DNA of 56,919 nt from an uncultured beta proteobacterium (GTDB taxonomy: Bacteria; Pseudomonadota; Gammaproteobacteria; Burkholderiales; Burkholderiaceae_C). Shown here piece after piece: positions 2,102 to 50,972 of the stretch. Made by a program: the position numbers and the translations under genes. The DNA lies in assembly GCA_903864505.1 (NCBI GenBank), contig CAIPGC010000322.1, positions 1 through 56,919 of the forward strand, given 5' to 3'. The notes below the pieces were generated by a model. It ran no database searches. It was given only the letters and a program-made list of their open reading frames with translations, and had not been told where the DNA came from. The number at the start of each line of letters is the position of its first letter. Position 1 is the first letter of the stretch.

Positions 2102-2147
2102 CCAGAGCCCGTAAAAGCTGCGTACGCAGCTAGTATTTCAATAGCAA
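2102..2147 (-). repeat. Dispersed ~46 bp repeat, copy 1 (intergenic)
   Basis: Read on the minus strand it begins TTGCTATTGAAATACT, then AGCTGC, then a TACGC core, and ends GGGCTCTGG. It aligns position for position with the other copies listed here. It contains GCTA...TAGC complementary ends in its first half and a 16-bp palindrome (AGCTGCGTACGCAGCT) at its centre. It lies between the thioesterase stop and the MDR start. Confidence 0.75.
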
Positions 2148-2169
2148 CTCAAACCGGATTCGACCTACC

Positions 2170-3183
2170 ATGCCAAGCAACCACCAAATCCACCTCGATA
2201 ACCGCCCAAGCGGCGCAGCCGTCGCCAGTAATTTCAAGTTTGTAACGGTGCAAACGCCTGACCTGCAGGACGGTCAGATTCTGGTGCGTCACCACTTCCT
2301 CAGTCTGGACCCCTACATGCGCGGCCGTATGAACGATGCCAAGAGCTACGCGGCACCGCAGGCTCTTGGCCAGGTGATGCAGGGCGGCACCGTGGGCGAG
2401 GTGGTGGAATCGCGCAACGTGCGTTTTGCGGTAGGTGACAAGGTCGTCGGCATGGGCGGCTGGCAGGAATACAGCATTGTTGACGCCAATCAGGTCGGTG
2501 CGGTGCGCAAGGTGGACACGACCCACGTACCCCTGAGCGCCTATCTCGGTGCAGTGGGCATGCCGGGGGTGACTGCCTGGTACGGTCTGGTGAAAATTTG
2601 CCAACCCCAACCGGAGCAGACCATGGTGGTCAGCGCCGCCACGGGTGCGGTGGGTAGTGCGTTTGCGGCCCTGTCCAAAGCGCGTGGATGCCGGACCGTG
2701 GGTATTGCCGGCGGCCCGGACAAGTGCCGCTACGCGGTGGACGAACTGGGCTTTGATGCCTGCATCGACTACAAGGTCCATACCAGCGCCGCCACGCTGT
2801 CCATGGCACTGGCGGATGTCTGTCCCAGGGGCATCGATGGTTATTTTGAAAACGTGGGTGGAATGGTGCTCGACGCCGTGATGCCGCGCATGAATGCATT
2901 CGGAAGAATCGCCGTGTGCGGCATGATTGCGGGATACGACGGGGCACCCCTGCCGATGAGCTACCCGGCCCTGATCTTGATGCAGCGGCTGACGCTGCAG
3001 GGTTTTATCGTCAGTGAACACATGGAAGTCTGGCCCGAGGCATTGGCCGAGTTGGGTACGCTGGTAGCCAGCGGCAAGCTGCGTGCCAGAGAGTCGATCG
3101 CGCAAGGTCTTGCCGCCGCCCCCGAAGCCTTCCTGGGTCTGCTGCAGGGCAAGAACTTTGGCAAGCAGCTGGTAAAACTATGA
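2170..3183 (+). CDS. NADP-dependent oxidoreductase, zinc-free MDR family (CurA/leukotriene B4 dehydrogenase type)
   Basis: The 337 residues contain the family's N-terminal MRGRMNDAKSYAAPQALGQVMQGG, the GWQEY segment and the nucleotide-binding ATGAVGSAFAALSKARG loop around residues 157-173. Zinc-ligand cysteines of true alcohol dehydrogenases are absent. Relatives reduce the double bond of enones or similar activated alkenes with NADPH. It starts at the ATG at 2170, and its stop overlaps the start of the GST-like gene by four bases (ATGA), so the two are coupled. Confidence 0.9.
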   Translation: MPSNHQIHLDNRPSGAAVASNFKFVTVQTPDLQDGQILVRHHFLSLDPYMRGRMNDAKSYAAPQALGQVMQGGTVGEVVESRNVRFAVGDKVVGMGGWQEYSIVDANQVGAVRKVDTTHVPLSAYLGAVGMPGVTAWYGLVKICQPQPEQTMVVSAATGAVGSAFAALSKARGCRTVGIAGGPDKCRYAVDELGFDACIDYKVHTSAATLSMALADVCPRGIDGYFENVGGMVLDAVMPRMNAFGRIAVCGMIAGYDGAPLPMSYPALILMQRLTLQGFIVSEHMEVWPEALAELGTLVASGKLRARESIAQGLAAAPEAFLGLLQGKNFGKQLVKL

Positions 3184-4112
3184 TCATTCTTCACCACTAC
3201 CCTACCTCGCCGTTCTCGGAGAAGATCCGCCTGATTCTGGGCTGCAAGGAGATGGCCTGGAAGTCGGTCATCATCCCGGCCATCCTGCCCAAACCCGATG
3301 TGGTCGCACTTACCGGTGGCTACCGCAAGACACCGTTTCTGCAGATCGGGTCCGACGTGTACTGCGATACGGCTCTGATTTGCGATGTGCTCGAGCACAT
3401 TCAACCCACACCCACGCTCTACCCCGACCGCCACAAAGGTCTGACGCGGGTGCTGGCCCAGTGGGCCGACAGCACGCTGTTCTGGGCCGCCATGGCCTAC
3501 AACCTGCAACCCAAGGGTGCAGCCGCCATGTTTGAGGGAGCGCCGCCCGAGGCCGCCCAGGCTTTTGGCGCCGACCGTGCTGCCATGGCTGCCGGCATGA
3601 CCCGATTGCGTCCGGCCGATGCCACGGCGGCCTACAAATCCTACCTGCGCCGGCTTGAAAATATGCTCGACGGTCAGCACTTTCTGGTTGGTGATTCGCC
3701 CTGCGTGGCCGATTTCGCGGCCTACCATCCGCTGTGGTTCACCCGCAAACGCGTGCCCGTGATGGCCCCGATTCTGGACGCAACGCCGGACGTGCTGGCC
3801 TGGATGGAGCGCATGAACGCCTTCGGTCACGGCACCATGGAAAAATACTCTTCTACAGAAGCGATAGCGGTTTGCGCAGCATCTGCGGGCGTTTCAGCCC
3901 CATTGGACGAGTATTTTCAGGATGAACACGGTATTTCACTGGGTGAGCAGGTTACGGTGGCGGCCGAAACTTTTGGCCAGGAAACCACCCAGGGTGAGCT
4001 AGTGGCGGCCAGTCGCACCCGCTACACGCTGCGTCGTGTCGATGCACGCGCAGGCGCGGTGCATGTGCACTTTCCCCGTGTTGGCTATGTTTTGAAGAAG
4101 GCGCAGACATGA
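3180..4112 (+). CDS. Glutathione S-transferase family protein with C-terminal extension
   Basis: Residues 1-80 form a thioredoxin-like GST N-domain (HHYPTSPFSEKIRLILGCKE, then RKTPFLQIGSDVYCDT). Residues 90-210 form the helical C-domain ending in VADFAAYHPLWF. At 310 residues it is longer than an ordinary GST of about 210. The extra tail includes a stretch encoded by a dispersed repeat copy (residues about 224-239) and then a small beta-rich segment. The gene overlaps both neighbours by 4 bp. The substrate is unknown; a detoxifying or thiol-transfer role in the surrounding catabolic cluster is inference. Confidence 0.85.
   Translation: MIILHHYPTSPFSEKIRLILGCKEMAWKSVIIPAILPKPDVVALTGGYRKTPFLQIGSDVYCDTALICDVLEHIQPTPTLYPDRHKGLTRVLAQWADSTLFWAAMAYNLQPKGAAAMFEGAPPEAAQAFGADRAAMAAGMTRLRPADATAAYKSYLRRLENMLDGQHFLVGDSPCVADFAAYHPLWFTRKRVPVMAPILDATPDVLAWMERMNAFGHGTMEKYSSTEAIAVCAASAGVSAPLDEYFQDEHGISLGEQVTVAAETFGQETTQGELVAASRTRYTLRRVDARAGAVHVHFPRVGYVLKKAQT
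3850..3897 (+). repeat. Dispersed ~46 bp repeat, copy 2 (inside GST-like CDS)
   Basis: It starts CTTCTACAGAAGCGAT, continues AGCGGT and TTGCGCAGC, and ends GCGGGCGTTTCAG. It is divergent in its last third but keeps the spacing of the other copies. It is read in frame and encodes an alanine- and serine-rich linker between the GST fold and the C-terminal tail. Confidence 0.6.
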
Positions 4113-5017: not shown

Positions 5018-5082
5018 CGTAATCGGCTCGGTGGTTCTGATAGCATTCAGACCTTGGCAAGTTAAACGGCGAGGGGATAAAA

Positions 5083-7883: not shown

Positions 7884-7984
7884 CTCCGGACCTGTTTCAG
7901 TGTGGCAAACTCCCGCCCTTGTTTCCATGTCGCAGCAGCCCGCCAGGGTACTGCCTATCTCCCGTAAGTGCCCATTTTCCCGCC

Positions 7985-10021
7985 ATGCAGAAAATCATCG
8001 CGCAACTCGCGCAAGAAATCCGTGTCCGTCCCCAGCAGATCGAAGCCGCCGTGCAATTGCTCGACGGCGGTGCCACCGTTCCCTTTATCGCACGCTACCG
8101 CAAGGAGGTGACCGACGGTCTGGATGACGTCCAGCTGCGTGAGCTCGAGGCCCGGCTCGCCTATCTGCGCGAACTGCGCGACCGCAAGGAAGCCGTGACC
8201 AAGGCCATCGGCGAACAGGGCAAGCTCACGCCGGCGCTGGTTGCCGCCATCAACGCAGCAGCGAGCAAGCAGGAAGTAGAAGACCTCTACCTGCCGTTCA
8301 AGCTCAAGCGCCGCACCAAGGGCCAGTTGGCCCGCGAGGCCGGACTGGAGCCGCTGGCCGATGCACTGTTTGAAAACCCCACGCTGGTACCCGCGGAGGC
8401 GGCATTGCCCTACGTCATTGCGCCCAGGCCGATGGTTGACGGCGAGGACCGGCCGCCGGACTTTTCCACAGTGCAGGCGGTGCTCGACGGTGTGCGCGAC
8501 CTGTTGAGCGAACGCTGGGCGGAACAGCCCGCACTGGTGCAGAACCTGCGCCACTGGTTGTGGCAGGAAGGACTGTTGCAGAGCAAGCTTGCCTCGGGCA
8601 AGGACGAAACCCATGCCGACGTGGCGAAATTTCGCGACTATTTTGATTACGACGAGCCGATCGGTCGCGCTCCCTCGCACCGCGCGTTGGCCGTATTTCG
8701 CGGACGGGCCTTGGACATTCTCGAAGTCAAGCTTGTGGTCCAAGAGGAAAAAACACTTGCAGCCCCCGCTGGTATTGCGCCAGCAGCTATCAATTCAGGA
8801 GTAATCGGAAGTGGGAATACAAGGCAGCCAGCCGCGGTTTCACTGGCCGAAGCGCGCATCGCCCTGGCGCTGGGCTGGAGCCACCAGGGCAGGGCAGCCG
8901 ACGACCTGATACGCAAGTGCGTGGCCTGGACCTGGAAAGTCAAGCTCAGCCTGTCGGTCGAGCGCGACCTGTTCGCCCGTTTGCGCGAAGCGGCCGAAAA
9001 AGTGGCGATCAAGGTGTTCGCAGACAACCTGCGCGACCTGCTGCTGGCCGCACCTGCGGGCCCGCGGGTCGTGATGGGCCTGGACCCCGGCATCCGCACC
9101 GGGGTCAAGGTGGCCGTGGTCGACCGCACCGGAAAACTGGTCGAGACCGACACCGTCTACCCGCACGAACCCAAGCGCGACTGGGACGGATCGCTGCATA
9201 CGCTGGGCAAGCTGTGCGCAAAGCACGGTGTGAATCTGATTGCGATCGGCAACGGCACCGCCAGCCGGGAGACCGACAAGCTCGCAGCCGACCTGATCAA
9301 GCTCTTGGCCAAGCTCGCTGCACAGGCAGGAGCGCCGGAGATCAAGGTGGACAAGGTTGTCGTCAGCGAAGCCGGTGCCTCGGTCTATTCCGCCAGCGAA
9401 TTCGCTTCGCAGGAGATGCCCGATGTCGATGTCAGCCTGCGCGGTGCCGCCAGCATTGCCCGGCGCTTGCAGGACCCGCTGGCAGAACTGGTCAAGATCG
9501 ACCCAAAATCCATTGGCGTGGGCCAGTACCAGCACGACGTGAACCAGAGCGAACTGGCGCGCACGCTCGAGACGGTGGTGGAAGACTGCGTCAACGCCGT
9601 GGGCGTGGACCTCAACACCGCCAGTGTGCCGCTGCTCTCGAGAGTGTCGGGCTTGTCGGGAACCGTCGCCAAGTCGGTGGTGCGCTGGCGTGAGGCGAAC
9701 GGCGCGTTTGCCAACCGCCAGCAGTTGCTCAAGGTGACCGGTCTGGGCACCAAGACGTTTGAGCAAAGTGCCGGATTTCTGCGCATCCGCGGCGGAGACA
9801 ATCCACTGGACATGACCGGTGTACACCCCGAGACTTACCCGGTGGTCGAGTCCATCCTTGCCCGAACCGGCAAACCGGTCGCCGAGATCATGGGCCGTGC
9901 CGACATGCTCAAGACCCTGCGTCCAGAACTGTTTTCCAATGAACAGTTTGGTGTCATCACCGTCAGGGACATCCTCACCGAGCTGGAAAAACCCGGCCGC
10001 GACCCGCGTCCGGACTTCTAG
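7985..10021 (+). CDS. tex: Transcription accessory protein Tex, ended by an amber codon before its S1 domain
   Basis: From ATG 7985 the frame encodes 678 residues: the Tex N-terminal helical region (MQKIIAQLAQEI, then FIARYRKEVTDGLDD), a YqgF-like nuclease fold (VVMGLDPGIRTGVKVAVVD), helix-hairpin-helix repeats (VDLNTASVPLLSRVSGLS; LLKVTGLGTKTFEQSAGFLRI) and the linker ending GRDPRPDF. A TAG at 10019-10021 then interrupts the frame. The same frame continues directly into an S1 RNA-binding domain, so family members of about 780 residues are here split in two. A dispersed repeat copy lies inside the gene at 8756-8804. Tex is a nucleic-acid-binding factor affecting transcription. Whether the truncated product works is unknown. 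Confidence 0.88.
   Translation: MQKIIAQLAQEIRVRPQQIEAAVQLLDGGATVPFIARYRKEVTDGLDDVQLRELEARLAYLRELRDRKEAVTKAIGEQGKLTPALVAAINAAASKQEVEDLYLPFKLKRRTKGQLAREAGLEPLADALFENPTLVPAEAALPYVIAPRPMVDGEDRPPDFSTVQAVLDGVRDLLSERWAEQPALVQNLRHWLWQEGLLQSKLASGKDETHADVAKFRDYFDYDEPIGRAPSHRALAVFRGRALDILEVKLVVQEEKTLAAPAGIAPAAINSGVIGSGNTRQPAAVSLAEARIALALGWSHQGRAADDLIRKCVAWTWKVKLSLSVERDLFARLREAAEKVAIKVFADNLRDLLLAAPAGPRVVMGLDPGIRTGVKVAVVDRTGKLVETDTVYPHEPKRDWDGSLHTLGKLCAKHGVNLIAIGNGTASRETDKLAADLIKLLAKLAAQAGAPEIKVDKVVVSEAGASVYSASEFASQEMPDVDVSLRGAASIARRLQDPLAELVKIDPKSIGVGQYQHDVNQSELARTLETVVEDCVNAVGVDLNTASVPLLSRVSGLSGTVAKSVVRWREANGAFANRQQLLKVTGLGTKTFEQSAGFLRIRGGDNPLDMTGVHPETYPVVESILARTGKPVAEIMGRADMLKTLRPELFSNEQFGVITVRDILTELEKPGRDPRPDF
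8756..8804 (-). repeat. Dispersed ~46 bp repeat, copy 3 (inside tex)
   Basis: On the minus strand it reads TTACTCCTGAATTGAT, AGCTGC, TGGCGCAATACC, then AGCGGGGGCTGCAAG. The second half forms a GCTGG...CCAGC stem. Read through in the tex frame it gives an Ala/Gly/Ile/Ser-rich insert between LVVQEE and SLAEARI, a place where Tex proteins vary in length. Confidence 0.75.
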
Positions 10022-10508: not shown

Positions 10509-11315
10509 ATGAAACTGAACGAGCTGCTCGAGCTGCAATTCAATTTGCCCAGCATTCCCAAGGTGGTCGCCTTGCTGCTGACTGAACTCGAGCGCAAGGA
10601 GCTCGATCTGCGCAAGATCACACAGCTCATCAGTACCGACCCCGCGCTCACCACACGGCTGTTGCGGCTGGCCAATTCCATCCCCTTCAAAATGCCGGGC
10701 AAGATCAGCAGCGTCTCCGAAGCGCTGGCTTTGCTGGACCTGTCGCACGTGCGCTCCATGGCGCAGGCAGCTGCCAGCGGGGCCTCGCTCAAGGCGGTGC
10801 CCGGCATCAACCTGCAGCGGTTCTGGGACTACAGCCTGAACGTGGCCAAGGTCTCGCGGTCCTTGGCGGGCGTGGTGCGGCAAAACCAGCAGGCTGCCTT
10901 TACCTGTGGTTTGATCCACGCCATTGGTGAACTCGCGATGCACCTGGGCATGCCGCAGGAGATGGCCAAACTCAGCGCCGAGGTCGCCCCACTGGATCTG
11001 CGTCGCGCCGGACTGGAGCGGCGCGACTTTGGCTACTGCTATGCCTCGGTCGGGGCAGGTTACGCACGGATGTGGCATCTGCCGCAAAGCATGGTCGATG
11101 CGCTGGAGCACCAGTACGCGCCGTTCGAGAACAATGTGTACGAACCGCTGGCCGGTGTCGTTCATCTTGCCGCCTGGCGCTCGCGTGGAAAAGAGGCCAA
11201 CCTGAGCGAGCGCGGTCTGGCCGTCACCTTTCCCGGCTCGGTCGGCGTCGCGCTGGGTCTGGACATCGATATGGTGCTGCAGCAGGACCCGTTCGACTGG
11301 GCCGCACATAATTGA
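10509..11315 (+). CDS. HDOD domain-containing protein
   Basis: A 268-residue protein that is almost all HDOD domain: LPSIPKVVALLLTELERKELDLRKITQLISTDPALTTRLLRLANS at residues 14-58, then ALALLDLSHVRSMAQ and the helical core with LIHAIGELAMHLG. HDOD domains resemble HD phosphohydrolases but usually lack the metal ligands, and they act in signalling and regulation. No receiver, GGDEF or kinase domain is attached. Its stop overlaps a possible TTG start of the patatin gene, so the two may be co-transcribed. Confidence 0.85.
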   Translation: MKLNELLELQFNLPSIPKVVALLLTELERKELDLRKITQLISTDPALTTRLLRLANSIPFKMPGKISSVSEALALLDLSHVRSMAQAAASGASLKAVPGINLQRFWDYSLNVAKVSRSLAGVVRQNQQAAFTCGLIHAIGELAMHLGMPQEMAKLSAEVAPLDLRRAGLERRDFGYCYASVGAGYARMWHLPQSMVDALEHQYAPFENNVYEPLAGVVHLAAWRSRGKEANLSERGLAVTFPGSVGVALGLDIDMVLQQDPFDWAAHN

Positions 11316-11332
11316 ACCGCCCCTGGCCCCAG

Positions 11333-12487
11333 ATGCAGGCACTTCAGATTTTCGCCGGCCCCGTGGCCATGCAGGCCATTGCCAAAGACGGTTTGCAGCC
11401 CGCAGATATCTGCACCATCCCGGCAGCAGCAGGTGGCCCCAAAGGGCTCATGCTGGGAGCAATGGACCGCTTCCTGTTTGGTCAATGGTTGCCGCAGTCC
11501 GCGCAGCGCATTGATCTTGTGGGCGCGTCCATTGGGGCCTGGCGTTTGGCCACGGCGTGCCTGAATGATCCGGTGGCCGCTTTCGAGCGGCTGGAGCACG
11601 ATTACATCCACCAGCATTACGCGCTGGCGCCAGGGCAGAAACGCCCCAGCGCCGCGATCGTAAGCGAACTGTTTGGCCAGAACCTGCAGGCGTTTTACGG
11701 TGGCCGGGTGAACGAGGTGCTGGCGCATCCTCGCTACCACTTGCATATCCTCACCTCCCGTGGTCGCCATCTGCTGGCTACCGAGCATCCGTTGCGCACC
11801 CCGCTGGGCTATCTGGGCGCGTTCCTCACGAACAGCGTTCATCGCAAGGCCATGGGTGCATGGCTGGAGCGTGTGGTGTTTTCAACCCGGATTGCACCTG
11901 CGCCCGATGCCGCCTGTGCTCCCCTGCCTTTTGGCACGCACGACTACCGAACCCGTCAACTGCCGCTGAGTGCGGCCAACTTCACCCTGGCGCTGCAAGC
12001 GAGCTGTTCGATCCCGTTTGTGCTGCAGGCAGTTCACAACATTCCCGGCGCCCCCAAAGGAGCGTATTGGGACGGTGGCATTACCGACTACCACCTGCAT
12101 CTGAACTACCCGGCAATGCGTCAACGTGCTATCACTTCAGTAGCTGACCACGCAGTATCGGCAAGCGCTGAGGGCACAAAGCGCTTAGTTTTATACCCAC
12201 ATTTTCAGAAGGCAGTGGTTCCCGGCTGGCTCGACAAGCGTCTGCAATGGAGGCACCGCGCCACCCACCATCTCGACACCATGGTGCTATTGACGCCACA
12301 TCCGCAGTGGATCAAAACGCTGCCCAACGGTAAACTGCCGGATCGAAGCGACTTCACCTATTACGGCAACGATCTGGAGGCTCGAGTCAAAGCCTGGAGT
12401 ACCGCTACGGCGGCAAGTACCCAGTTGGTGGAGGAGTTTGCGGCGTGGCTGGAGCGACCGGATCTCGGTCGGGTTCAGCCGATCTAG
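11333..12487 (+). CDS. Patatin-like phospholipase family protein
   Basis: About 384 residues from the ATG at 11333; a TTG at 11312 would add seven and overlap the HDOD stop by 4 bp. The patatin features are present: the oxyanion-type PAAAGGPKGLMLGAMD near the N-terminus, the nucleophile elbow GASIGAWR with its GxSxG, and the aspartate in DGGITDYHL. The enzyme would be an acyl hydrolase with a Ser-Asp dyad. A dispersed repeat copy lies inside the gene (12126-12173) and encodes a Ser/Ala-rich loop before RLVLYPHF. No signal peptide is seen, so it is probably cytoplasmic. Confidence 0.85.
   Translation: MQALQIFAGPVAMQAIAKDGLQPADICTIPAAAGGPKGLMLGAMDRFLFGQWLPQSAQRIDLVGASIGAWRLATACLNDPVAAFERLEHDYIHQHYALAPGQKRPSAAIVSELFGQNLQAFYGGRVNEVLAHPRYHLHILTSRGRHLLATEHPLRTPLGYLGAFLTNSVHRKAMGAWLERVVFSTRIAPAPDAACAPLPFGTHDYRTRQLPLSAANFTLALQASCSIPFVLQAVHNIPGAPKGAYWDGGITDYHLHLNYPAMRQRAITSVADHAVSASAEGTKRLVLYPHFQKAVVPGWLDKRLQWRHRATHHLDTMVLLTPHPQWIKTLPNGKLPDRSDFTYYGNDLEARVKAWSTATAASTQLVEEFAAWLERPDLGRVQPI
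12126..12173 (+). repeat. Dispersed ~46 bp repeat, copy 4 (inside patatin gene)
   Basis: GTGCTATCACTTCAGT, then AGCTGA, CCACGCAGTATCGG, and AAGCGCTGAGG. The GCTA...TAGC complementary ends of the first half are intact. It is read in frame. Confidence 0.72.
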
Positions 12488-30961: not shown

Positions 30962-30998
30962 TTCGGAGCTGCTCACGCTTTATGAACGGGGGCTACAG
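30951..30998 (+). repeat. Dispersed ~46 bp repeat, copy 6 (over the tadA start)
   Basis: CTGCTATGCATTTCGG, AGCTGC, TCACGCTTTATGAAC, GGGGGCTACAG. It covers the first codons of the tadA fusion and its upstream region, so the choice of start (GTG 30976 or ATG 30961) falls inside repeat-derived DNA. Confidence 0.78.
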
Positions 30999-31012
30999 CA
31001 CTATTTCTGTTG

Positions 31013-31683: not shown

Positions 31684-34176
31684 TCAGGGTCTGAGGGTCA
31701 GTGTATGGGCCATGGTTGCCGTGGACAACTGCAACGGCCGGTACTGTACTTCGCTCCAGGCACTAGCCATATCACGGTAGCGGCTGGAAAACACCAATCC
31801 ACTCTGGCCGGTCTGGTAAACGAAGAGCGAGTTCTCCAGGTTGCTCAGGTCAAACACCGTGCGCATGGACGCAGCATGGCGGCTGGCGAAAGGCATTTTT
31901 CCTTCCACCGGCCAGTACTGCCCTACATTAACGGTAAATGCATCGCCGCCCGTGGGCGTCCGCACTTCAAAATACTTGGCCAGCGAAGCAACGCTGCTCA
32001 ATGGACGGTGGGCACTCAAGGCCAAATGCGCCTTGCCCCACTTCCACTGCGCCACGTCAGTGCCGTAGGCGGTTTGCAAACGGTCGAGCGCTCGATCGAA
32101 TGCACCATTCACATGCTCAGAACAGCTTTTGGGAGCGCACCACCAGGGGTCAGAACCCAGCAGCGCTTCCTCTACCGTAAAACGGAAATGCCGCTTGCCA
32201 TACAGACCCTGGAACGCTGCGTCTCCGAGCTTGGGCTGAATCAGGCTGCGGGCTACTTCGTCGGCCCAAGCCGCGAAGATGAGCGGAGCCGCCGCATCTG
32301 CGCGCATCACAGCGTCAAAACCTGTGAGCTGGGCCATGGCCTGAGCAGCCAGCGCATGGCTGCTTTGAGCCTTCAGCAATACCGGCAGCAACACTTCAGC
32401 GCCTTTGGAGTGCTGGTCAGACTGGATCTTTTGCATGCTGTCCATACCGTGCTTGGGTGTCGCCGCAAGCAACTCCTCAATCCGGTCGAATCGATGCGGC
32501 AAAGTGAAATCCTGTCCCAGGAAATACTTGTAACCTGGCGGCGAAATTCTCTGGTTGGCGGTGGCAATCCAGCCCTTCTTGCCGGAGTCTTCAGGCGTTT
32601 CAGCCGCGGGAACCCAACCGCTCCAGTCGTAGCGCGCATCCCAACCCGGTGACGGTGCCAGACCCTGGATGTCATTGTCGGCGCGGCGCAAAGGCACCGT
32701 GCCCGCAGCCTTGTAAGCGATATTGCCTTCCACATCAGCCAGCACAAAGTTCTGCATCGGAGAATGCCATGATTCCAGGGCAGTCTGTGCCTGCGCCACG
32801 GAGTTGGCACGGTTGTACAGCACACCTGACATCACGGTATGGTTGTCTGAATCGAGCGCCGACCAGCGCAGCGCAAGAACATAGCTGCCGGTGTTCAGCA
32901 GTTCCTGGTGTGAATTCTGGGCATCGCTGATCACCGGGCCATGGCGCGTGGTGCGCACGTTATGGACGACATCGGGCTGCCCTTTGACCCTGATGATGTG
33001 TTTACGGTTCTTGAAATTCGCCCAGGCGGGCTTGCCATCCACATCGGGGATACGGTACTGGGTAGGGTCTTCCGGGTTGATCTGCTCAAGGTACAGGTCC
33101 TGCACATCGGGCCCGGTGTTGGTGACACCCCAGGCCAGTTTGTCCGTGCGCCCCAGCACCACAAACGGCAAACCCGGAAAGGTGGCTCCCACCGCGCTGA
33201 TGCCTGGTGCCTTTAGTGCGGCAAAGTACCAGACCGCCGGGGCGCTCAGCCCCAGATGCGGGTCATTGGCAAGGAGCGGTTTACCGCTGTTGGTGTGGCT
33301 TCCCGCCACCACCCAGTTGTTGCTTCCCTTTCCTTCGACGTTGCCAATACTGCCCATAAAATCGGCTGACCATTGCCGCATGTTGGCCAACATGGCTACA
33401 TCAAAACTGTTATCAGAAACCGTGGATGTTGCGTCTGCAGCTCCTGTTTTTGTAGCGGCTTTGGCATCGCCGCCAGGCGCGGTGCGGTACACGTGCAGGT
33501 CCGCATAGAGCTTGGACAGGTCAGCCTTGGCCACCGGTGTCTCCTTGCCATACGGGGCCATCAGTTGCCAAAGGCGCTCGGTGGGCAAGTGTTGCGCAGC
33601 GGTGAGCCGTGCGAACTCTGCGCCCCAGTTTCCGCCCAGATCCAGCGCCATCATGATCGCCCACCCCACGCTATCCTGTGCGGTCCACTTGCCCGGTTTG
33701 ATGCCCAAGAGATGGAATTCTGGTGGAAGGGCCTGCCCCGACGTGGCATGAAACGCGTTGATGCCGTCGGCATAACGCTGCAGGGCTTCCTTGCATTCAG
33801 GCGAAAAACCGTCCCACTGAAACTGGGCTGAACGGGCAATACCCAGCGTGCGCATCAGCTTATCTGTCTCCAGCGTGGCAGAACCCAACGCTTCGGAAAG
33901 TTCGCCGTGCATGAGACGTCGGTTGAACTCCAATTGCCAGCTGCGCTCCTGCGCGTGGACATAGCCCAGGCCGAACCAGACATCCTTGTCAGCAGTCGCC
34001 TGGATATGCGTGACATCCGATGCGTCTCGCTGGATGCGAATTGGGGCTGACAAGCCTTGCACCGAAATCACCCCGTCCATCACCGGGAACGTGCGTCGCA
34101 CATACCAAAGCGCCAGTGCGGCAACCAGAACCACCAGGGCCAACAGCCCCCACCCCATTCGCCTTAACCACAGCAT
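31684..34176 (-). CDS. Penicillin acylase family protein (Ntn hydrolase)
   Basis: About 830 residues from ATG 34176; a TTG at 34221 would add fifteen. The N-terminus is a signal anchor (GWGLLALVVLVAALALWYV). The precursor is cut before Ser285 in GKGSNNWVVAGSHT, which becomes the N-terminal nucleophile of the beta chain. Further conserved segments are LLANDPHLGLSAPAVWYFA and GVTNTGPDVQDLYLEQ. Relatives hydrolyse amides such as penicillin side chains or acyl-homoserine lactones in the periplasm. A weak dispersed-repeat copy (33438-33483) lies in the alpha-chain/linker region. Confidence 0.9.
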   Translation of the reverse strand: MLWLRRMGWGLLALVVLVAALALWYVRRTFPVMDGVISVQGLSAPIRIQRDASDVTHIQATADKDVWFGLGYVHAQERSWQLEFNRRLMHGELSEALGSATLETDKLMRTLGIARSAQFQWDGFSPECKEALQRYADGINAFHATSGQALPPEFHLLGIKPGKWTAQDSVGWAIMMALDLGGNWGAEFARLTAAQHLPTERLWQLMAPYGKETPVAKADLSKLYADLHVYRTAPGGDAKAATKTGAADATSTVSDNSFDVAMLANMRQWSADFMGSIGNVEGKGSNNWVVAGSHTNSGKPLLANDPHLGLSAPAVWYFAALKAPGISAVGATFPGLPFVVLGRTDKLAWGVTNTGPDVQDLYLEQINPEDPTQYRIPDVDGKPAWANFKNRKHIIRVKGQPDVVHNVRTTRHGPVISDAQNSHQELLNTGSYVLALRWSALDSDNHTVMSGVLYNRANSVAQAQTALESWHSPMQNFVLADVEGNIAYKAAGTVPLRRADNDIQGLAPSPGWDARYDWSGWVPAAETPEDSGKKGWIATANQRISPPGYKYFLGQDFTLPHRFDRIEELLAATPKHGMDSMQKIQSDQHSKGAEVLLPVLLKAQSSHALAAQAMAQLTGFDAVMRADAAAPLIFAAWADEVARSLIQPKLGDAAFQGLYGKRHFRFTVEEALLGSDPWWCAPKSCSEHVNGAFDRALDRLQTAYGTDVAQWKWGKAHLALSAHRPLSSVASLAKYFEVRTPTGGDAFTVNVGQYWPVEGKMPFASRHAASMRTVFDLSNLENSLFVYQTGQSGLVFSSRYRDMASAWSEVQYRPLQLSTATMAHTLTLRP
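33438..33483 (+). repeat. Possible dispersed repeat, copy 7 (inside penicillin acylase gene)
   Basis: The first half, CAGCTCCTGTTTTTGT then AGCGGC, matches copy 8 in guaA closely. The second half is too divergent to be sure. It is antisense to the gene and gives an Ala/Thr-rich stretch just before the autocleavage region. Confidence 0.4.
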
Positions 34177-34268: not shown

Positions 34269-35885
34269 TCATTCCCACTCAATGGTGGCCGGTGGCTTGC
34301 TCGATACGTCGTAGGTAACCCGGTTGATTCCACGCACCTCATTGATGATGCGGCCAGACACTTTCTTCAGCAACGCATAGGGTAGTTCAGCCCAGTCGGC
34401 GGTCATGAAATCGCTGGTCTGAACTGCGCGCAGGGCCACCACGTAGTCGTAGGTGCGGCCATCGCCCATCACGCCGACGCTTTTTACCGGCAGGAATACC
34501 GTGAACGCCTGGCTGGTCAGGTCGTACCAGCTCTTGCCGGTGGCTGTGTCCTTGAAGTTGTGCAACTCTTCGATGAAGATCGCATCGGCGCGGCGCAGCA
34601 GGTCGGCGTACTCCGCCTTGACCTCGCCCAGGATGCGCACTCCCAGGCCGGGGCCAGGGAAAGGATGGCGATACACCATGTCGTGCGGCAGGCCCAGCGC
34701 TACGCCAAGTTCGCGCACCTCGTCCTTGAACAGTTCGCGCAGCGGTTCCAGCAATTTCAGGCCCAACTGCTCTGGCAATCCACCCACGTTGTGATGGCTC
34801 TTGATGGTGACGGCTTTCTTGTTCTTGGCACCACCTGATTCGATCACATCCGGATAAATAGTGCCTTGGGCAAGAAAACTTGCTCCTGCTTTAGTAGCAT
34901 CCTGCGCAGTCAGTTTGAGGGCTGCAGCCTTGAAAACCTCAACAAACTCACGGCCGATGATCTTGCGCTTTGCCTCCGGGTCGGCGACTCCGACCAGGTG
35001 CCTCAGGAACTGCTCGCTGGCATCCACCCGGACCACCTTGGCGTGCAGTTTTCCCACAAACATATCCATCACCATGTCACCCTCATTCAGGCGCAGCAGA
35101 CCATGGTCTACGAAGACACAGGTGAGCTGGTTACCAATGGCACGGTGGATCAACGCTGCCGCCACCGAAGAATCGACACCCCCGGATAGCCCCAGAATAA
35201 CCTCCTCGCGGCCGACCTGGGTGCGGATTTTCTCAACCGCTTCGGCGATGTAGTCACCCATGATCCAGTCGGGTCGGGTGCCGCAGATGTCGAGCACAAA
35301 GCGATTCAAAATGGCAGCACCCTGCTTGGTGTGTGTAACTTCCGGGTGAAACTGAACTGCATAGAAGTGCCGTGCCTCGTCGGCCATGCCGGCAATCGGG
35401 CAGGCCACGTTGGAGGCCATCAGCGTGAAGCCAGCAGGCATCTCAGTCACTTTGTCCCCGTGGCTCATCCACACATCCAGCATGCCGTACCCTTGCGGCG
35501 TGGCGCTGTCCTCAATGCCATCCAACAGCCTGGTGTGGCCGTGCGCGCGGATCTGGGCCGAGCCGAACTCGCGCGTCCTGCCCGCCACCACCTTGCCGCC
35601 GAGTTGCTGCGCCATGGTTTGCATGCCATAGCAAATGCCCAGCACTGGTATCCCCAATTCGAATACCGAATCAGGGGCCTTGTCGGTGCTGTCCTCATAC
35701 ACGCTGGCGTGGCTGCCAGAAAGGATCACTCCCTTAAGACCGCCGTCCAAGGCGTACGCGCGCACCCAGTCGTCCGACACATCGCACGGATGCACCTCGC
35801 AAAACACATGTGCCTCCCGCACCCTCCGTGCGATGAGTTGGGTAACCTGGGAGCCAAAGTCAAGAATCAGTATTTTTTGGTGCAT
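34269..35885 (-). CDS. guaA: GMP synthase (glutamine-hydrolysing)
   Basis: 538 residues from ATG 35885. The glutaminase triad is Cys85 (GICYGMQ), His180 and Glu182 (HPEVTHT). The ATP-pyrophosphatase loop is [10 protein letters not shown] (residues 232-241), and the C-terminal dimerisation domain ends in [18 protein letters not shown]. It converts XMP to GMP. It lies 10 bp downstream of guaB, so guaBA is an operon. Residues about 323-336 ([10 protein letters not shown]...) have no counterpart in E. coli GuaA and coincide with a dispersed repeat copy, an in-frame insertion in an essential enzyme. Confidence 0.97.
34880..34927 (+). repeat. Dispersed ~46 bp repeat, copy 8 (inside guaA)
   Basis: TTGCTCCTGCTTTAGT, AGCATC, CTGCGCAGTCAGTTTGA, GGGCTGCAG. 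It is antisense to guaA and lies between the codons for [10 protein letters not shown] and [11 protein letters not shown], the point at which this protein is several residues longer than E. coli GuaA. Confidence 0.75.
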
Positions 35886-35895
35886 AACAAACTGT

Positions 35896-37410
<1,515 letters not shown>

Positions 37411-39374: not shown

Positions 39375-40505
39375 TTACGTCAGGTTCTTTAGAGGGTGAC
39401 TATCAGCCGTCCACGGACTGGCGAAAAATGGTTGCACCATGGCAGCGGTCACATCGTCAATGCGGGCCGGGTTCCATTGGGGTTTGAAGTCCTTGTCAAT
39501 GGCCAAGGCACGTATACCCTCTACGGTTTCTGTGGCTGCGCCGGTTCGGCTCAGGTGTTTCGTGTAGAAACAATGCTGCACCAGATCGCGCTCCATGCGC
39601 AGGTCCTCGGCAAGCGTCATCTTGCGGGCGCGGCGGATCTGCTCTAGCACGACGTGCAGCATGAGCGGACTGCGTTGGCGCAATGTGGCGGCAATGGCAC
39701 GGGCGGTCTTGGTGCCCTGCGCCTCAAGCGCAGATACCATGGTGGAAATCGACCCCAACCCAAAGGCAGTCAAAATCTTTGCATCAAATGATGCTGCAGC
39801 CCCCGTAGAATCGGCGTAGGCAGCTATGACATTGGTAGCAATCCAGTGTTGTACATCGTTCAAAGAAGCACAGTTTTGCAAAGCCGCCCAAAGCGCTGGA
39901 AGGTCCGCTGCGGGCACACACACATCGGCCAGTCCCCAGGCCACGGCCTGCTCTGCGCCAATGGTGTCTCCGCTGAGCGCCAGGTATTCGCCCACGTGTC
40001 CGGGACAACGGCCAAGGAAGTAGCCTCCACCCACATCCGGAAACAGACCAATGCCAGTCTCGGGCATAGCCATCTTCGTGTGCTCGGTCACAATGCGCAG
40101 ACTTGCACCCTGACTGATGCCCATGCCCCCGCCCATCACGATGCCGTCCATGAATGCAATATAGGGCTTGGGGAAGGTATGGATCAGGTGGTTGAGGGTG
40201 TATTCGACGGTAAAAAATTCGTCCAGAGCCGTATCGCCAGCCAGCGCTGCCTGGTGAAAAAAGCGGATATCGCCACCGGCACAGAAACCCCCAAACAGTG
40301 CCTCAGGCGTACCGGGGCGACCCACCTTGTTGCTGCCGCGAATGGCCACGGCAAACACTGCCGGGTTGTCGCGCCAGGCCTGCAGGATTGAAAGCAGCGA
40401 CTGCACCATGGGCAGCGACAGGGCATTGAGCGCCTTGGGGCGATTCAGGGTGATCAGACCGATGCCGCCCACCACACTGGTTTGAACTTCAGCAATTGTC
40501 ATCAT
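39375..40505 (-). CDS. 3-hydroxyisobutyryl-CoA hydrolase (enoyl-CoA hydratase superfamily)
   Basis: 376 residues. The crotonase-fold signatures are GGFCAGGDIRFFHQ (oxyanion hole), IVMGGGMGISQGASLRIVTEHTKMAMPETGIGLFPDVGGGYFL, the last being typical of 3-hydroxyisobutyryl-CoA hydrolase in valine breakdown. A 2-enoyl-CoA hydratase is the alternative. Two ATG codons lie at its start; the first overlaps the DMT transporter stop by 4 bp. A dispersed repeat copy at 39794-39841 falls inside. Confidence 0.88.
   Translation of the reverse strand: MMTIAEVQTSVVGGIGLITLNRPKALNALSLPMVQSLLSILQAWRDNPAVFAVAIRGSNKVGRPGTPEALFGGFCAGGDIRFFHQAALAGDTALDEFFTVEYTLNHLIHTFPKPYIAFMDGIVMGGGMGISQGASLRIVTEHTKMAMPETGIGLFPDVGGGYFLGRCPGHVGEYLALSGDTIGAEQAVAWGLADVCVPAADLPALWAALQNCASLNDVQHWIATNVIAAYADSTGAAASFDAKILTAFGLGSISTMVSALEAQGTKTARAIAATLRQRSPLMLHVVLEQIRRARKMTLAEDLRMERDLVQHCFYTKHLSRTGAATETVEGIRALAIDKDFKPQWNPARIDDVTAAMVQPFFASPWTADSHPLKNLT
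39794..39841 (-). repeat. Dispersed ~46 bp repeat, copy 9 (inside CoA-hydrolase gene)
   Basis: On the minus strand: TTGCTACCAATGTCAT, AGCTGC, CTACGCCGATTCTAC, GGGGGCTGCAG, with intact GCTA...TAGC ends. It is in frame with, and in the same direction as, the gene, giving the Ala/Ser/Asp-rich stretch ATNVIAAYADSTGAAAS. Confidence 0.78.
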
Positions 40506-41518: not shown

Positions 41519-43342
41519 TGTCCTCCCAGCGCGTTTGCGTTCGGTTTCGGTCAGGTGGCGTTTGCGCAGGCGGATCGACTTGGGCGTGATTTCGACCAGT
41601 TCGTCGTCCTCGATGAACTCGACACCGTACTCGAGCGTGCATTCGATTGGCGGGGTGATCTTGATCGCATCTTCCTTGCCACTGACGCGGAAGTTGGTCA
41701 GCTGTTTGGTTCGGGTGGCATTCACCACCAGATCGTTGTCGCGGCTGTGAATGCCGACAATCATGCCTTCGTAGACCGGATCATTGGGGCGAACAAACAT
41801 GCGACCGCGCTCGTCAAGCTTGCCCAACGCATAGGTAAAAATTTCACCAGCATCCATGGAAATCAGCACACCGTTCTTGCGTCCGCCAATCTCACCCTTG
41901 TGTGGCTCATAACTATCAAAGATATTGGAGATCAGGCCCGTGCCCCGCGTCAGGTTCAGAAACTCGTTGGTAAAACCAATCAGCCCGCGCGCTGGAATGC
42001 GGTATTCCAGACGCACGCGACCACGTCCGTCGGGCTCCATGTTGACCAGATCGCCCCTGCGTTCACCCAGAGCCTGCATCACGCCGCCCTGGTGCTGCTC
42101 TTCGATGTCGGCGGTCACCATCTCAATGGGCTCGTGCTTTTCGCCATTGATCTCCTTGAACACAACGCGTGGCTTGCTCACCGCCAGTTCGTAGCCTTCG
42201 CGGCGCATGTTCTCCAGCAAAATGGTCAGGTGCAGTTCGCCACGACCCATGACTTCGAAGATGCCTTCTTCCCCGGTTTCCTTGACGCGCAGTGCCACGT
42301 TGTGTTGCAACTCCTTTTGCAGACGGTCCCAGATCTGGCGACTGGTGACGTACTTGCCGTCACGACCAGCCAATGGACTGGTATTAACGCAGAAATTCAT
42401 GGTCAACGTAGGTTCGTCTACCTTGAGCATGGGCAGCGGCATGGGACTCAGCGGATCGGTAATGGTCACACCAATGCCAATGTCGGCCAGGCCATTGATC
42501 AGCACAATTTCACCTGGCCCCGCCTCGTTGGTCTGCATACGCTCCAGCCCCTCGAAGGTCAGTACCTGGTTGATACGGCCCTTGATCGGTTTGCCATCCA
42601 GCCCTTCCATGACCACCACGTCCATCATGGGCCGGATCGTTCCCTGGCTAATGCGGCCCACGCCAATACGACCCACAAAGGTGGAAAAGTCGAGCGCAGA
42701 AATTTGCAACTGCAGCGGTGCGGAGGGATCGCCTTCTTGATGCGGTACATGCTGAAGAATGGTATTGAACAGGGCCGACATATCCGGACCCCACTGCTCT
42801 CCCTGCGCACCCTCTTCCATCGATGACCAGCCGTTGATACCCGAGGCATAGACCACGGGAAAATCCAGCTGCTCGTCGGTAGCTCCCAGCTTGTCAAACA
42901 AGTCGAATGCGGCGTTCACCACAAAATCGGGGCGGGCACCGGGCTTGTCAACCTTGTTCACCACCAAAATGGGCTTGAGTCCCAACGCCAGCGCTTTCTT
43001 GGTAACAAAGCGAGTTTGCGGCATGGGGCCTTCCTGTGCGTCGATCAACAGCACCACGCCGTCGACCATTGAGAGCGCACGCTCTACCTCACCGCCAAAG
43101 TCGGCGTGTCCGGGAGTATCGACGATATTGATATGCGTACCCCCCCAGGTCACGGCACAGTTCTTGGCCAGAATCGTAATGCCACGCTCTTTTTCAATCG
43201 CGTTGTTGTCCATCACGGTGTCGACCACTTTCTCGTGGCTGGCGAAAGTTCCGGATTGACGCAGCAACTGGTCGACCATGGTGGTCTTGCCATGGTCCAC
43301 GTGGGCAATGATGGCGATGTTTCGGATTTGTTTAATGCTCAT
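41516..43342 (-). CDS. typA: Translational GTPase TypA/BipA
   Basis: 608 residues: G1 IIAHVDHGKTTMVDQLL, G3 DTPGHADFGGEV, G4 NKVDKP, then EF-G-like domains III and V and the BipA C-terminal domain with EYRIPARGLIGFTNEFLNLTRGTGLISNIFD. It is a ribosome-associated GTPase used in 50S assembly and stress or low-temperature growth. The start overlaps the truB stop by 4 bp. It is the last gene of the rimP operon. Confidence 0.97.
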   Translation of the reverse strand: MSIKQIRNIAIIAHVDHGKTTMVDQLLRQSGTFASHEKVVDTVMDNNAIEKERGITILAKNCAVTWGGTHINIVDTPGHADFGGEVERALSMVDGVVLLIDAQEGPMPQTRFVTKKALALGLKPILVVNKVDKPGARPDFVVNAAFDLFDKLGATDEQLDFPVVYASGINGWSSMEEGAQGEQWGPDMSALFNTILQHVPHQEGDPSAPLQLQISALDFSTFVGRIGVGRISQGTIRPMMDVVVMEGLDGKPIKGRINQVLTFEGLERMQTNEAGPGEIVLINGLADIGIGVTITDPLSPMPLPMLKVDEPTLTMNFCVNTSPLAGRDGKYVTSRQIWDRLQKELQHNVALRVKETGEEGIFEVMGRGELHLTILLENMRREGYELAVSKPRVVFKEINGEKHEPIEMVTADIEEQHQGGVMQALGERRGDLVNMEPDGRGRVRLEYRIPARGLIGFTNEFLNLTRGTGLISNIFDSYEPHKGEIGGRKNGVLISMDAGEIFTYALGKLDERGRMFVRPNDPVYEGMIVGIHSRDNDLVVNATRTKQLTNFRVSGKEDAIKITPPIECTLEYGVEFIEDDELVEITPKSIRLRKRHLTETERKRAGRT

Positions 43343-44322
43343 GGTTCACTTTCTGCTAACGGTTCAATTCTTCGCTCTTGCGCTTGCATTTCACTAATTT
43401 CCACCGGACTTAACAGGCGGATCGGTATCAACTCACCGGCCCTGATATGGGCGGTTCCCAGCAGGGTACGTGGCTGTTCTGCGTACACCGCCACCTGCTC
43501 TGCATCCGGCCACGCACCCCGCCTGCGCAGGCCGCTCAAAAAGCGTCCCGCATTGTCACTGTCGAGCGTGACAACTTTATGGGTGGCGATCAGGCTGTCC
43601 ACCGGCAACAGGCATGCCATGCGTTCGTATTCACTCATCACCTGCAGCGCTTCGAGCGTAACGCACTGCGCTGCTTCAAAATCGCCAGTGCGAATCCTTC
43701 GCAGTGCCCCCAGGTGGGCACCGCACCCCAGGGCCTCGCCAATGTCTTCGCCCAGCGTCCGGATGTACGTACCCTTGCTGCACTTTACTTCCAAATTAAT
43801 AGCTGTCTGCGCAATATCTATGCGGGGCTCCAGCACTTTCAGCACATAAATCGTCACATCTCTGGGCGTCCGCTCCACCTCGATGCCCGCACGCGCATAT
43901 TCGTACAGCGCCTTGCCGTCCTTCTTCAAGGCGCTGTGCATCGGTGGGATTTGCCGGATCGGTCCGGTGAATTGACGCACCACCTCATCCAACTGAACGG
44001 ACGACACTTGGATCGACCGCTCAGTTAACACTTCACCCTCGGCATCTGCCGTACTCGTCTTTACTCCCAGGCGCAATACCGTTTGATAGGTCTTGTCCGC
44101 ATTCAGATGCATCTGGCTGAATTTGGTTGCCGCGCCAAAGCACAGAGGCAAAACGCCCGTCGCAAGAGGGTCCAGCGTTCCCGTATGCCCTGCTTTTTCG
44201 GCCCGCAGCAGCCACTTCGCCTTTTGCAATGCCTGGTTACTGGACAGCCCCAACGGTTTGTCCAACAACAGCACCCCATGCACGGGGCGCCGTGTGACCC
44301 GTGCACGCGGCGCATTCATCAA
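43339..44322 (-). CDS. truB: tRNA pseudouridine(55) synthase TruB
   Basis: 327 residues: GVLLLDKPLGLSSNQALQKAKWLL, catalytic Asp in GHTGTLDPLATGVLPLCFG, and KCSKGTYIRTLGEDIG. It makes the T-loop pseudouridine of elongator tRNAs. Adjacent in the operon are rbfA (1 bp upstream) and typA (4-bp overlap). A dispersed repeat copy at 43785-43833 covers the codons just before CSKGTYIR, so that part of the loop is repeat-derived. Confidence 0.96.
   Translation of the reverse strand: MMNAPRARVTRRPVHGVLLLDKPLGLSSNQALQKAKWLLRAEKAGHTGTLDPLATGVLPLCFGAATKFSQMHLNADKTYQTVLRLGVKTSTADAEGEVLTERSIQVSSVQLDEVVRQFTGPIRQIPPMHSALKKDGKALYEYARAGIEVERTPRDVTIYVLKVLEPRIDIAQTAINLEVKCSKGTYIRTLGEDIGEALGCGAHLGALRRIRTGDFEAAQCVTLEALQVMSEYERMACLLPVDSLIATHKVVTLDSDNAGRFLSGLRRRGAWPDAEQVAVYAEQPRTLLGTAHIRAGELIPIRLLSPVEISEMQAQERRIEPLAESEP
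43785..43833 (+). repeat. Dispersed ~46 bp repeat, copy 10 (inside truB)
   Basis: TTACTTCCAAATTAAT, AGCTGT, CTGCGCAATATCTATGC, GGGGCTCCAG. It is antisense to truB and read through in frame. The first half is closest to copy 3 in tex. Confidence 0.75.
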
Positions 44323-44323
44323 A

Positions 44324-49278: not shown

Positions 49279-49319
49279 GCCATGACTCTCCTGAACACTC
49301 ATTTCAACCAAAAATAAAG

Positions 49320-49919: not shown

Positions 49920-49950
49920 TTAAGCTCAGCCTACTCAAAAACAATCGACC

Positions 49951-49984
49951 AAAAAAAACGGGCGGTAGTTACCCGCCCGTTTGG
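49951..49984 (-). terminator. Terminator-like hairpin in the rimP operon leader (possible attenuator)
   Basis: In the minus direction ACGGGCGG...(loop)...CCGCCCGT is followed by a run of eight T. The stem is about 8 bp of GC-rich pairs plus flanking A-T pairs, at 49957-49982. It lies between a TACAAT-like -10 element (49997-50002, minus) and the rimP start at 49919, so transcription of the operon would meet it within about 10-40 bases. Confidence 0.65.
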
Positions 49985-50108
49985 TCGTGAGGATGCATTG
50001 TAGCTCAAAAAACTGCGCTAAACCCCTTGATTCTTAAGGAAATCATCGCCTGCAACGTGCCATGAATCACATGCGACAATCGCGCATCTTTTTCGAGGAG
50101 TCAGCCCC

Positions 50109-50903
50109 ATGGGTTTTTTGGATGGCAAAAAGCTATTGATCACTGGCGTTCTGAGCAACCGCTCTATCGCCTACGGTATTGCCAGGGCCTGCCACGCCCA
50201 GGGCGCAGAGTTGGCGTTCAGCTACGTTGGCGAACGTTTCAAGGACCGCACTACAGAGTTTGCAGCCGACTTCAATTCCAAGCTGATTTTTGATTGTGAT
50301 GTGGGCGATGATGCCCAAATCGATGCACTGTTCAAGGGCCTGTCTTCTGCATGGCCGAAGTTTGATGGTCTGGTGCATAGCATCGGCTTTGCGCCCCGCG
50401 AGGCCATTGCGGGCAACTTCCTCGATGGATTGACCCGCGAAAACTACCGCATTGCGCACGACATCAGCGCCTACAGTTTCCCGGCACTGGCCAAGGCAGC
50501 CCTTCCCTACCTGAACGACAAGGCGGCACTGCTGACCCTGTCCTACCTGGGTGCTGAGCGCATCATTCCGCACTACAACACCATGGGGTTGGCCAAGGCT
50601 TCGCTGGAGGCATCGGTCCGCTACCTGGCAGAGGCCGTCGGCCGGTTGCCCGATGGCCGCTCCATCCGTGTCAACGGCATCAGCGCCGGTCCCATCAAGA
50701 CACTGGCAGCCAGCGGCATCAAGGACTTTGGCAAATTGCTGGGTTACGTCGCCGCTTCGGCACCGAATCGGCGCAACGTCACCATCGATGAAGTAGGCAA
50801 CGTAGCTGCGTTCATGCTGAGTGACCTCGCAAGCGGGGTCACCGCGGAAATCACCTACGTCGACGGCGGCCACAGCAAGAGCATGGGCGTAGCTGCCGAT
50901 TGA
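50109..50903 (+). CDS. fabI: Enoyl-ACP reductase FabI
   Basis: 264 residues of the FabI SDR subclass: [36 protein letters not shown], the VHSIGFAP loop, and the catalytic Tyr and Lys in [19 protein letters not shown]. The C-terminal part reads [39 protein letters not shown]. It reduces trans-2-enoyl-ACP with NADH in fatty acid elongation and is the target of triclosan in relatives. A GAGGAG ribosome site lies at 50095-50100. It is alone on its strand. Confidence 0.96.
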
Positions 50904-50926
50904 TGTTCATTGATCAAAAGGGCATC

Positions 50927-50972
50927 TGAACCGCGCATCATAAGCGCAGACAGCTATACTATTTAAAGCAAT
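50927..50972 (-). repeat. Dispersed ~46 bp repeat, copy 11 (between fabI and the decarboxylase gene)
   Basis: On the minus strand: TTGCTTTAAATAGTAT, AGCTGT, CTGCGCTTATGATG, CGCGGTTCAG. It sits in the 77-bp convergent gap and so lies at the 3' ends of both genes, where it could act as a transcript end structure. Confidence 0.7.

Follow-up and report, generated by a model that had tools for sequence, protein, structure and literature searches.

A family of DNA motifs about 50 bp long is dispersed over the 56,919-base stretch analysed here (the window; 59% GC), which is contig C322 of the 4.04-Mb, 332-contig genome of an uncultured, Rhodoferax-like beta-proteobacterium. By the window's ECH_2-family protein, the nearest named relatives are Rhodoferax metagenome-assembled genomes (MAGs) together with beta-proteobacterial MAGs, at 79–80% identity. 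The motif family is real, large and maintained, and is best read as a maintained, directional ~50-bp recognition motif for a protein that reads double-stranded DNA. The function that we infer for it, with a probability of roughly 0.35, is that of a self tag spread by biased natural transformation, similar to the DNA uptake sequences (DUS) and uptake signal sequences (USS) of other bacteria.

The consensus of the motif is roughly TYRCTAYnRWWTYnRTAGCTGCYTRCGCWnnnTnnRCRRGSGCTRSAGSC. Its core, CT-N11-AGC-N6-CGC, is near-invariant and has a fixed spacing: the columns CT (9–10), AGC (22–24) and CGC (31–33) are 94–99% conserved, each having been left out of the score by which the copies were found. 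Over ~50 bp, 175 of 177 copies align without a gap, that is, without any insertion or deletion. When scored with a position weight matrix (PWM), 202 of the 223 matches of at least 12 bits reached at least 20 bits, and there is therefore no continuum of decay among the copies. The motif occurs in dialects, since consensuses built genome by genome diverge around columns 34–36 and 42–46. Two dyads can be recognized in the consensus, GCTAYnRWWWYnRTAGC on the left and YTRCGC-N11-GSGYTR on the right.

Copies were sought in 450 kb of the genome that holds the window (window included), in 400 kb of a genome of the same genus (G112) and in 400 kb of a complete genome of the same family (G107). The search profile rests on 18 copies, of which 10 come from the window and 8 from other contigs; as the ten window copies belong to this training set, the independent evidence comes from the rest of the genome. 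At a threshold of 12 bits the profile detected 60, 54 and 72 copies in the own genome, G112 and G107, respectively, and none in the reversed sequences. The PWM, which was trained on copies from the same sequences that it scanned, gave 73, 59 and 86 matches of at least 14 bits, or one per 6.2, 6.8 and 4.7 kb; these counts include a few overlapping pairs on opposite strands, so that the 86 matches of G107 correspond to 81 places. Altogether, 218 such matches were found in 1.25 Mb and none in reversed sequence. Over both kinds of scan, reversed controls gave 0–1 matches at 12 bits. Copies lie on both strands (27 plus and 25 minus in G112, 37 plus and 29 minus in G107). In the first 400 kb of G107 contig C1 (L196–L215), some copies overlap head to head and share the right dyad, which creates a near-palindrome of two motifs.

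Across the whole 4.04-Mb genome, the 14-base core ATAGCTGCTTGCGC was found at 164 places when up to two mismatches were allowed, compared to 24 places for the reversed pattern. A sequence-model search of the same genome returned at least 150 copies, all with E below 1e-4, and extrapolation from one match per 6.2 kb predicts about 650. Among 150 genomes of the family, 58 (the own genome counted) carry the motif at E 0.001 and 92 have no match. In this survey matches were counted to 36 per genome, and the 38 genomes with at least 20 are called motif-rich here; searches over 40 genomes used stricter filters. Only 7 genomes matched in an order-wide draw of 200, five of them from the same family and two from other families with one match each.

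The motif is conserved as DNA. In TruB and ECH_2 genes it is kept at synonymous sites across genera, the bearing loci spanning Rhodoferax, Polaromonas, Curvibacter and Giesbergeria. A copy of at least 12 bits is present in the same ECH_2 gene in 51 of 80 loci, and the same truB gene carries a copy in 36 of 54. Codon 174 of truB is GCT in all 37 bearers, compared to 199 of 1906 alanine codons elsewhere in the gene, and codon 178 is ATA or GTA in every bearer but the window (36 of 37), triplets that account elsewhere for 8% of isoleucine and 5% of valine codons. For ECH_2, GCT stands at codon 223 in 51 of 52 bearers (417 of 3492 elsewhere) and codon 227 is ATA or GTA in 45 of 52; bearers were chosen by a motif score of at least 12, so this conservation is partly circular. 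Among the codons listed for the other loci, GCT leads too, both at TruB codon 174 (GCT 8, GCC 2) and at ECH_2 codon 223 (GCT 11, GCC 4, GCG 3).

Using a simple codon-usage gene caller, we placed 76 of 177 copies inside genes, 44 over a gene end and 57 between genes, in sequence of which only 9–12% is non-coding. Intergenic copies are in excess between convergent genes (18 of 57, in 15% of the intergenic bases) and in deficit between divergent ones (6 of 57, in 25%). In the own genome, 32 of 36 genic copies share one codon phase; of the 76 genic copies in all three genomes, 5 lie in the phase that reads the TAG of the motif, by our own derivation of the phases. Spacing in G107 is more even than random (P=0.0004). 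A 40-kb stretch with phage genes in the own genome (C103:20001–60000 of G000; L059–L060) is free of copies at 14 bits, where the density of the remaining scanned sequence predicts ~5.8, for a Poisson probability of 0.003. It encodes an integrase, RecE- and RecT-like proteins, a DnaB-like protein, terminase, portal and capsid, with PHROGs matches for 9 of the 10 proteins sent. It also encodes a protein of 3,384 residues, part of which resembles a DNA methyltransferase.

The original prediction for the window had proposed a dispersed, degenerate repeat with ten clear copies and a weak one, lying in both orientations relative to genes and mostly within reading frames that stay intact. The observation is borne out. 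With the 18-copy profile, ten of the eleven copies reach 27–43 bits (on the window, E 1.6e-12 to 1.5e-7) and were recovered within a few bases of where they had been placed, in both orientations and, according to the list of open reading frames (ORFs), with no frame broken. The weak copy at 33438–33483 is not a member, as the profile gives it only 9.6 bits, and on the other strand.

Seven of the ten copies lie within genes, as proposed. On the plus strand, the copy at 3850–3900 (33.5 bits) covers residues 224–241 of a GST-like gene (3180–4112, plus; assigned with Pfam), that at 12123–12176 (31.6 bits) residues 271–289 of a patatin-like gene (11312–12487, plus), that at 34877–34929 (30.1 bits) residues ~430–446 of guaA (34269–36215, minus), and that at 43782–43832 (33.4 bits) residues 164–181 of truB (43339–44322, minus). 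Homology to GMP synthase begins ~110 codons after the start of the guaA ORF, and the true start is probably downstream. The minus-strand copies within genes are at 8755–8805 (39.4 bits; residues 279–296 of tex, 7919–10021, plus), at 20030–20080 (29.9 bits; residues 116–133 of a ygfZ-like gene, 19495–20427, minus) and at 39792–39843 (42.7 bits; residues 221–238 of an ECH_2-family, 3-hydroxyisobutyryl-CoA hydrolase-like gene, 39375–40505, minus). One copy, at 30948–31001 on the plus strand (34.5 bits), overlies the start of a TadA-containing ORF (29567–30976, minus), in which, by Pfam, a TadA-like deaminase is fused to an alpha/beta hydrolase domain. The two intergenic copies, originally placed at 2102 and 50927, are both on the minus strand: 2098–2149 (34.0 bits) lies between the plus-strand ORFs 1611–2093 and 2170–3183, and 50921–50975 (27.0 bits) between the convergent genes 50109–50903 (plus) and 50981–53287 (minus). 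An Rfam scan of the window at gathering score matched only a tRNA (55279–55351), and no RNA family on the motif.

Rickettsia palindromic elements (RPEs) sit in frame inside genes, and the window copies had been said to recall them, though with a different sequence. In-frame insertion mostly fails within genes when judged by orthologue lengths, the refuting check named with the original prediction: two of seven testable genes, tex and patatin, do show what looks like insertion or growth of a loop, and at the other five lengths are near-equal. The length difference is 0 for YgfZ relative to the median of 24 motif-lacking orthologues, +1 residue for GST relative to the median of 26, and a median of 0 for both TruB (16 orthologues) and ECH_2 (34). 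For GuaA (45 of 56 aligned rows), relatives are mostly between 3 residues shorter and 1 longer, with two that are 9–10 longer; this alignment of relatives was read for its first 45 rows per gene, and locus L106 was left out of it for TruB and GuaA because of its different frame. Solved homologues agree: E. coli TruB is 4 residues shorter than the window protein, and 1gpm and 5tw7 (the best PDB match) are each 7 residues shorter than GuaA, not the ~17 that an inserted motif would encode.

A pair test covered 80 loci of relatives and the window, which together contain 96 strong matches, 69 inside ORFs with homologues and 27 not; the window GuaA copy was here assigned to an antisense ORF. Among 1776 pairs of a bearer and a non-bearer, dominated by TruB and ECH_2, the non-bearer was shorter by at least 10 residues in 0.45%, compared to 0.85% of 4219 control windows. 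Lengths were within 3 residues in 82% of pairs and in 91% of controls, and protein identity was 35% under the motif as against 73% in the controls. Genic copies thus mostly overlie tolerant, length-variable codons under low constraint and are not ~17-residue inserts.

The tendency of the two halves to fold, also put forward originally, holds for the consensus with its two dyads, but not in the sense of clear covariation between the arms. A conserved RNA or single-stranded DNA hairpin was considered and is disfavoured; folding the alignment of 18 copies gave two invariant pairs. With 172 pooled copies, pair tests found no covariation at columns 12–20, 28–50 and 30–48 (p 0.76, 0.78 and 0.58), and pairs 27–51, 34–44 and 35–43 were nominally significant (p 0.005, 0.0008 and 0.0006). 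Within single genomes the excess of correlation at the inner pairs is small, and we therefore read the pooled signal as dialect. Shuffling columns gave z values for the right dyad down to −7 in G107 and of −2.0 to −3.3 in the other genomes. When arms were swapped instead, which keeps correlations between neighbours, z was −1.1 to −1.7, and 13, 3 and 13 of 100 swaps were at least as stable in the own genome, G112 and G107; the left dyad showed no signal by this test in any of the three. A weak structural signal may thus be present in the right dyad. Overall, mostly independent pairs and a slight arm-swap effect are more readily explained by a protein that recognizes double-stranded DNA than by folding of a single strand.

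Hundreds of rigid yet degenerate sites that lie in both orientations and over codons, are rare between divergent genes, are absent from the phage-gene stretch and fall into dialects form a pattern known from biased DNA uptake, which we take to be the most likely cause. A surface receptor of the natural-transformation machinery, such as a ComP-like minor pilin, would prefer DNA that bears the motif; fragments with a better match would enter the cell and recombine with the chromosome at a higher rate, and the motif would accumulate through biased uptake and drive, as in the DUS of Neisseriaceae and the USS of Pasteurellaceae. Tentatively, DNA uptake sequences could then have a third family, with an evolutionary origin of its own, in this motif of Comamonadaceae, which is dyad-rich, ~50 bp long, split into dialects and present at hundreds of sites per genome. 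Parts of the machinery are common in the family: of the 150 genomes surveyed, 146 encode ComEC and 143 a pilin of the ComP_DUS family. G107 has a motif copy, G107:C1:1996869–1996920, within its own comEC match.

Several observations weigh against this proposal, beginning with added length. Compared to the median of 27 orthologues without the motif (range 18–62), the Tex loop that carries it has 15 additional residues, and the solved Tex structures (2oce/3bzc) are without the motif-bearing stretch. In patatin the motif-bearing loop exceeds the median of 25 orthologues that lack the motif (range 23–53) by 18 residues; both loops vary greatly in length. Four further patatin orthologues with at least 11 bits have 42, 42, 43 and 47 residues, where the median without the motif is 25, and these suggest one old insertion. 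In the pair test, exactly equal length was less frequent under the motif (62%) than in control windows (84%). Among 17 intergenic motif sites compared for length, six are between convergent genes, and at five of these (L084, L102, L111, L130 and L138) nearly all motif-lacking relatives are shorter: 38 of 44 at L084, 21 of 22 at L102, 4 of 4 at L111, and by 40 bp at L130 and 72 bp at L138 (median of 63 relatives). The sixth site, L081, is mixed, as are the length differences at tandem intergenic sites. Part of the added intergenic length is a precondition for the motif, since a gap of 30 bp is too small to hold 50 bp. Point mutation alone does not explain the added length at Tex, patatin and most convergent sites; insertion may explain these, but not most genic sites. 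At the tex locus of another genome (L175, G005), the same Tex loop is ~35 residues longer and holds a different, repeat-like insert in frame (peptide ...RQAQGER...VRAEPVEA...), possibly another in-frame repeat family.

The remaining points concern the machinery and the distribution of the motif. ComEC and ComP_DUS are as frequent in genomes without the motif (89 and 87 of 92) as in those with it (57 and 56 of 58), and they therefore lend no support to a link between motif and uptake. A search for the ComP_DUS family in the own genome found none, and among the papers listed by one literature search there was no report of competence for a motif-bearing species. At ~50 bp, the motif is longer than either DUS or USS. 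Copies in G112 are not spaced significantly more evenly than random (P=0.16), and the copy-free phage-gene stretch is a single region that was noticed after the fact. Finally, motif-rich genomes are associated with RAYT, the transposase of repetitive extragenic palindromic (REP) sequences: a strong RAYT-like match (E 1e-16 or better) is present in 35 of 38 motif-rich genomes and in 59 of 112 others, as counted by hand (Fisher p 5e-6 with relatedness ignored). This association and the longer convergent intergenic sites together reduce our confidence in uptake, lower it slightly for a chromosomal site and for a defence mark, and raise it for a mobile or REP-like origin.

Such an origin would make the copies mobile or once-mobile palindromic elements, by now spread and partly domesticated: either RPE-like inserts in frame, or REPs that a RAYT transposase moves or binds. 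Besides the RAYT association, the extra residues of Tex and patatin and the longer convergent regions look like added sequence. The head of a REP is RTAG followed by a dyad, which the RTAG of the motif next to its dyad resembles. RAYT-like matches occur in 136 of 150 family genomes, 41 of them over the curated cut-off, and a match of any strength is found in 55 of the 58 genomes that bear the motif and in 81 of the 92 that do not. However, G085 is motif-rich yet lacks any RAYT match, and a copy lies within 1 kb of only 4 of 20 RAYT loci in motif-rich genomes, where density alone (30 matches in 219 kb) predicts 28%. The near-equal orthologue lengths at five of seven genes, the lack of indels in 175 of 177 copies, the absence of a decay continuum, and arms that do not covary clearly (arm-swap z −1.1 to −1.7) also speak against mobility, and we regard this origin as rather unlikely. 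Two dyads at a fixed spacing with arms that lack clear covariation, and a DNA sequence conserved across genera, would also fit a site for chromosome organisation, recombination or topoisomerase action, at which a cytoplasmic DNA-binding protein would use hundreds of copies to structure, segregate or repair the chromosome. Selection would then keep the sites in the core genome while foreign DNA would be without them, and this reading accounts just as well for the abundance of the motif and for the lack of copies in the phage-gene stretch. Chi- or KOPS-type sites show a strand bias by chromosome arc, whereas the 150 best matches in the complete genome G107 show no significant one (best two-arc split, P=0.1). 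Dialects by genus, and 92 of 150 family genomes without a match, would also be odd for a housekeeping site. We consider a chromosomal site possible but doubtful.

The copy-free phage-gene stretch, the restriction to part of one family and the dialects could also fit a mark of self that is read by an intracellular defence or exclusion system, with unmarked DNA such as that of phages being attacked. In our judgement one copy per 5–7 kb is sparse for an intracellular mark, and we consider this explanation very improbable. Chance, or constraint on conserved peptides that happen to share codons, would be suggested by the several copies in housekeeping genes. Yet copies lie in different genes, frames and strands as well as between genes, and reversed controls with 0–1 matches at 12 bits, together with the conserved synonymous positions, rule this explanation out for practical purposes.

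Consensus strings were also compared by BLAST to collections of plasmids and phages. The string of the own dialect had no match among plasmids, and that of another dialect matched 1749 plasmid records. Among the 30 of these matches that were listed, those from Diaphorobacter, Comamonas and Delftia (3 records) span 80% or more of the query, and 25 of the other 27 are annotated DUF1010. In the phage collection the strings matched one record. The E. coli plasmid pP11b (NZ_MZ513635.1) carries a motif copy of 27.2 bits (L216:890–938), antisense in a DUF1010 cassette, which we take to be gcuF/orfF, flanked by dfrA12 and aadA2 in a class 1 integron. This copy, the one examined, suggests a chromosome of Comamonadaceae as the source of the DUF1010 cassette found in class 1 integrons.

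In print, the motif was found only as fragments. According to passages of a 2017 BMC Genomics article (PMC5217627), a motif pair GCTTAT(N)5AAGCG occurs in 114 copies in Acidovorax ebreus, of which 44 have convergent, 4 divergent and 59 co-oriented gene neighbours, and a pair ATAGCT(N)22CAAAAG in 125 copies in Polaromonas naphthalenivorans. Both are termed there 'potential novel motifs', without a function, and R. ferrireducens T118 is given the most motif pairs of all genomes, 140. GCTTAT(N)5AAGCG falls exactly on columns 32–47, within the right half of our motif, and was found at 13 places in 400 kb of G107, compared to 1 in the reversed control. ATAGCT(N)22CAAAAG was found 0 times in the four sequence sets searched, 1.29 Mb of relatives included. 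In contrast to these short fragments from single species, as those passages describe them, the motif is 50 bp long, family-wide and overwrites codons; the passages also put forward no role in uptake. Searches of open-licence full texts on the motif core, on uptake sequences and palindromic elements in Comamonadaceae and on repeats or competence in these genera turned up, among the papers listed, no account of the complete motif.

With an uptake function, if true, these environmental bacteria would consume DNA selectively, favouring that of their kin. The motif would then predict which species are competent and offer a DNA bait for the receptor, and a third case of uptake sequences would allow the debate on drive versus function to be tested on an independent origin. 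Should the motif instead be a chromosome-organising site or a domesticated form of REP, it is still a rigid 50-bp sequence that lies over codons at hundreds of places and, in the two genes examined, is conserved between genera at synonymous positions, and as such it bears on protein evolution throughout the family.

Among known systems, the motif resembles RPEs in lying in frame within genes and differs from them in that its genic copies are mostly not insertions. With REP/RAYT systems it shares a similar density, an RTAG-like head by a dyad, an extragenic excess and a strong RAYT that is commoner in motif-rich genomes; unlike them, it has arms that do not clearly covary, RAYT flanks at the density expectation and many copies over codons. 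The Betaproteobacterial repeat element BRE is described in passages of PMC3110155 as ~90 bp long and tandem-variable, with 4 copies in R. ferrireducens; like the motif, and compared here by that description only, it is dispersed in Betaproteobacteria including Comamonadaceae, with some copies in genes. In the R. ferrireducens genome paper (PMC2755013), the passages on repeats and palindromes concern CRISPR only. The closest parallel is with uptake sequences. As set out in passages of a 2025 source (PMC12616744), these are known only from Neisseriaceae and Pasteurellaceae, measure ~13 nt (DUS) and up to 32 nt (USS), and number hundreds or thousands per genome, with conserved inner cores and dialects; a passage of PMC7811141 has USS arising by point mutation and not by insertion. 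The motif differs from DUS and USS in its ~50 bp, its two dyads, its different sequence and the length added at some sites. In its hundreds of copies on both strands, its conserved inner core, variable outer parts and dialects, it matches what those passages describe, and at GST, YgfZ, GuaA, ECH_2 and TruB, though not at Tex and patatin, it likewise seems to have arisen over existing sequence.

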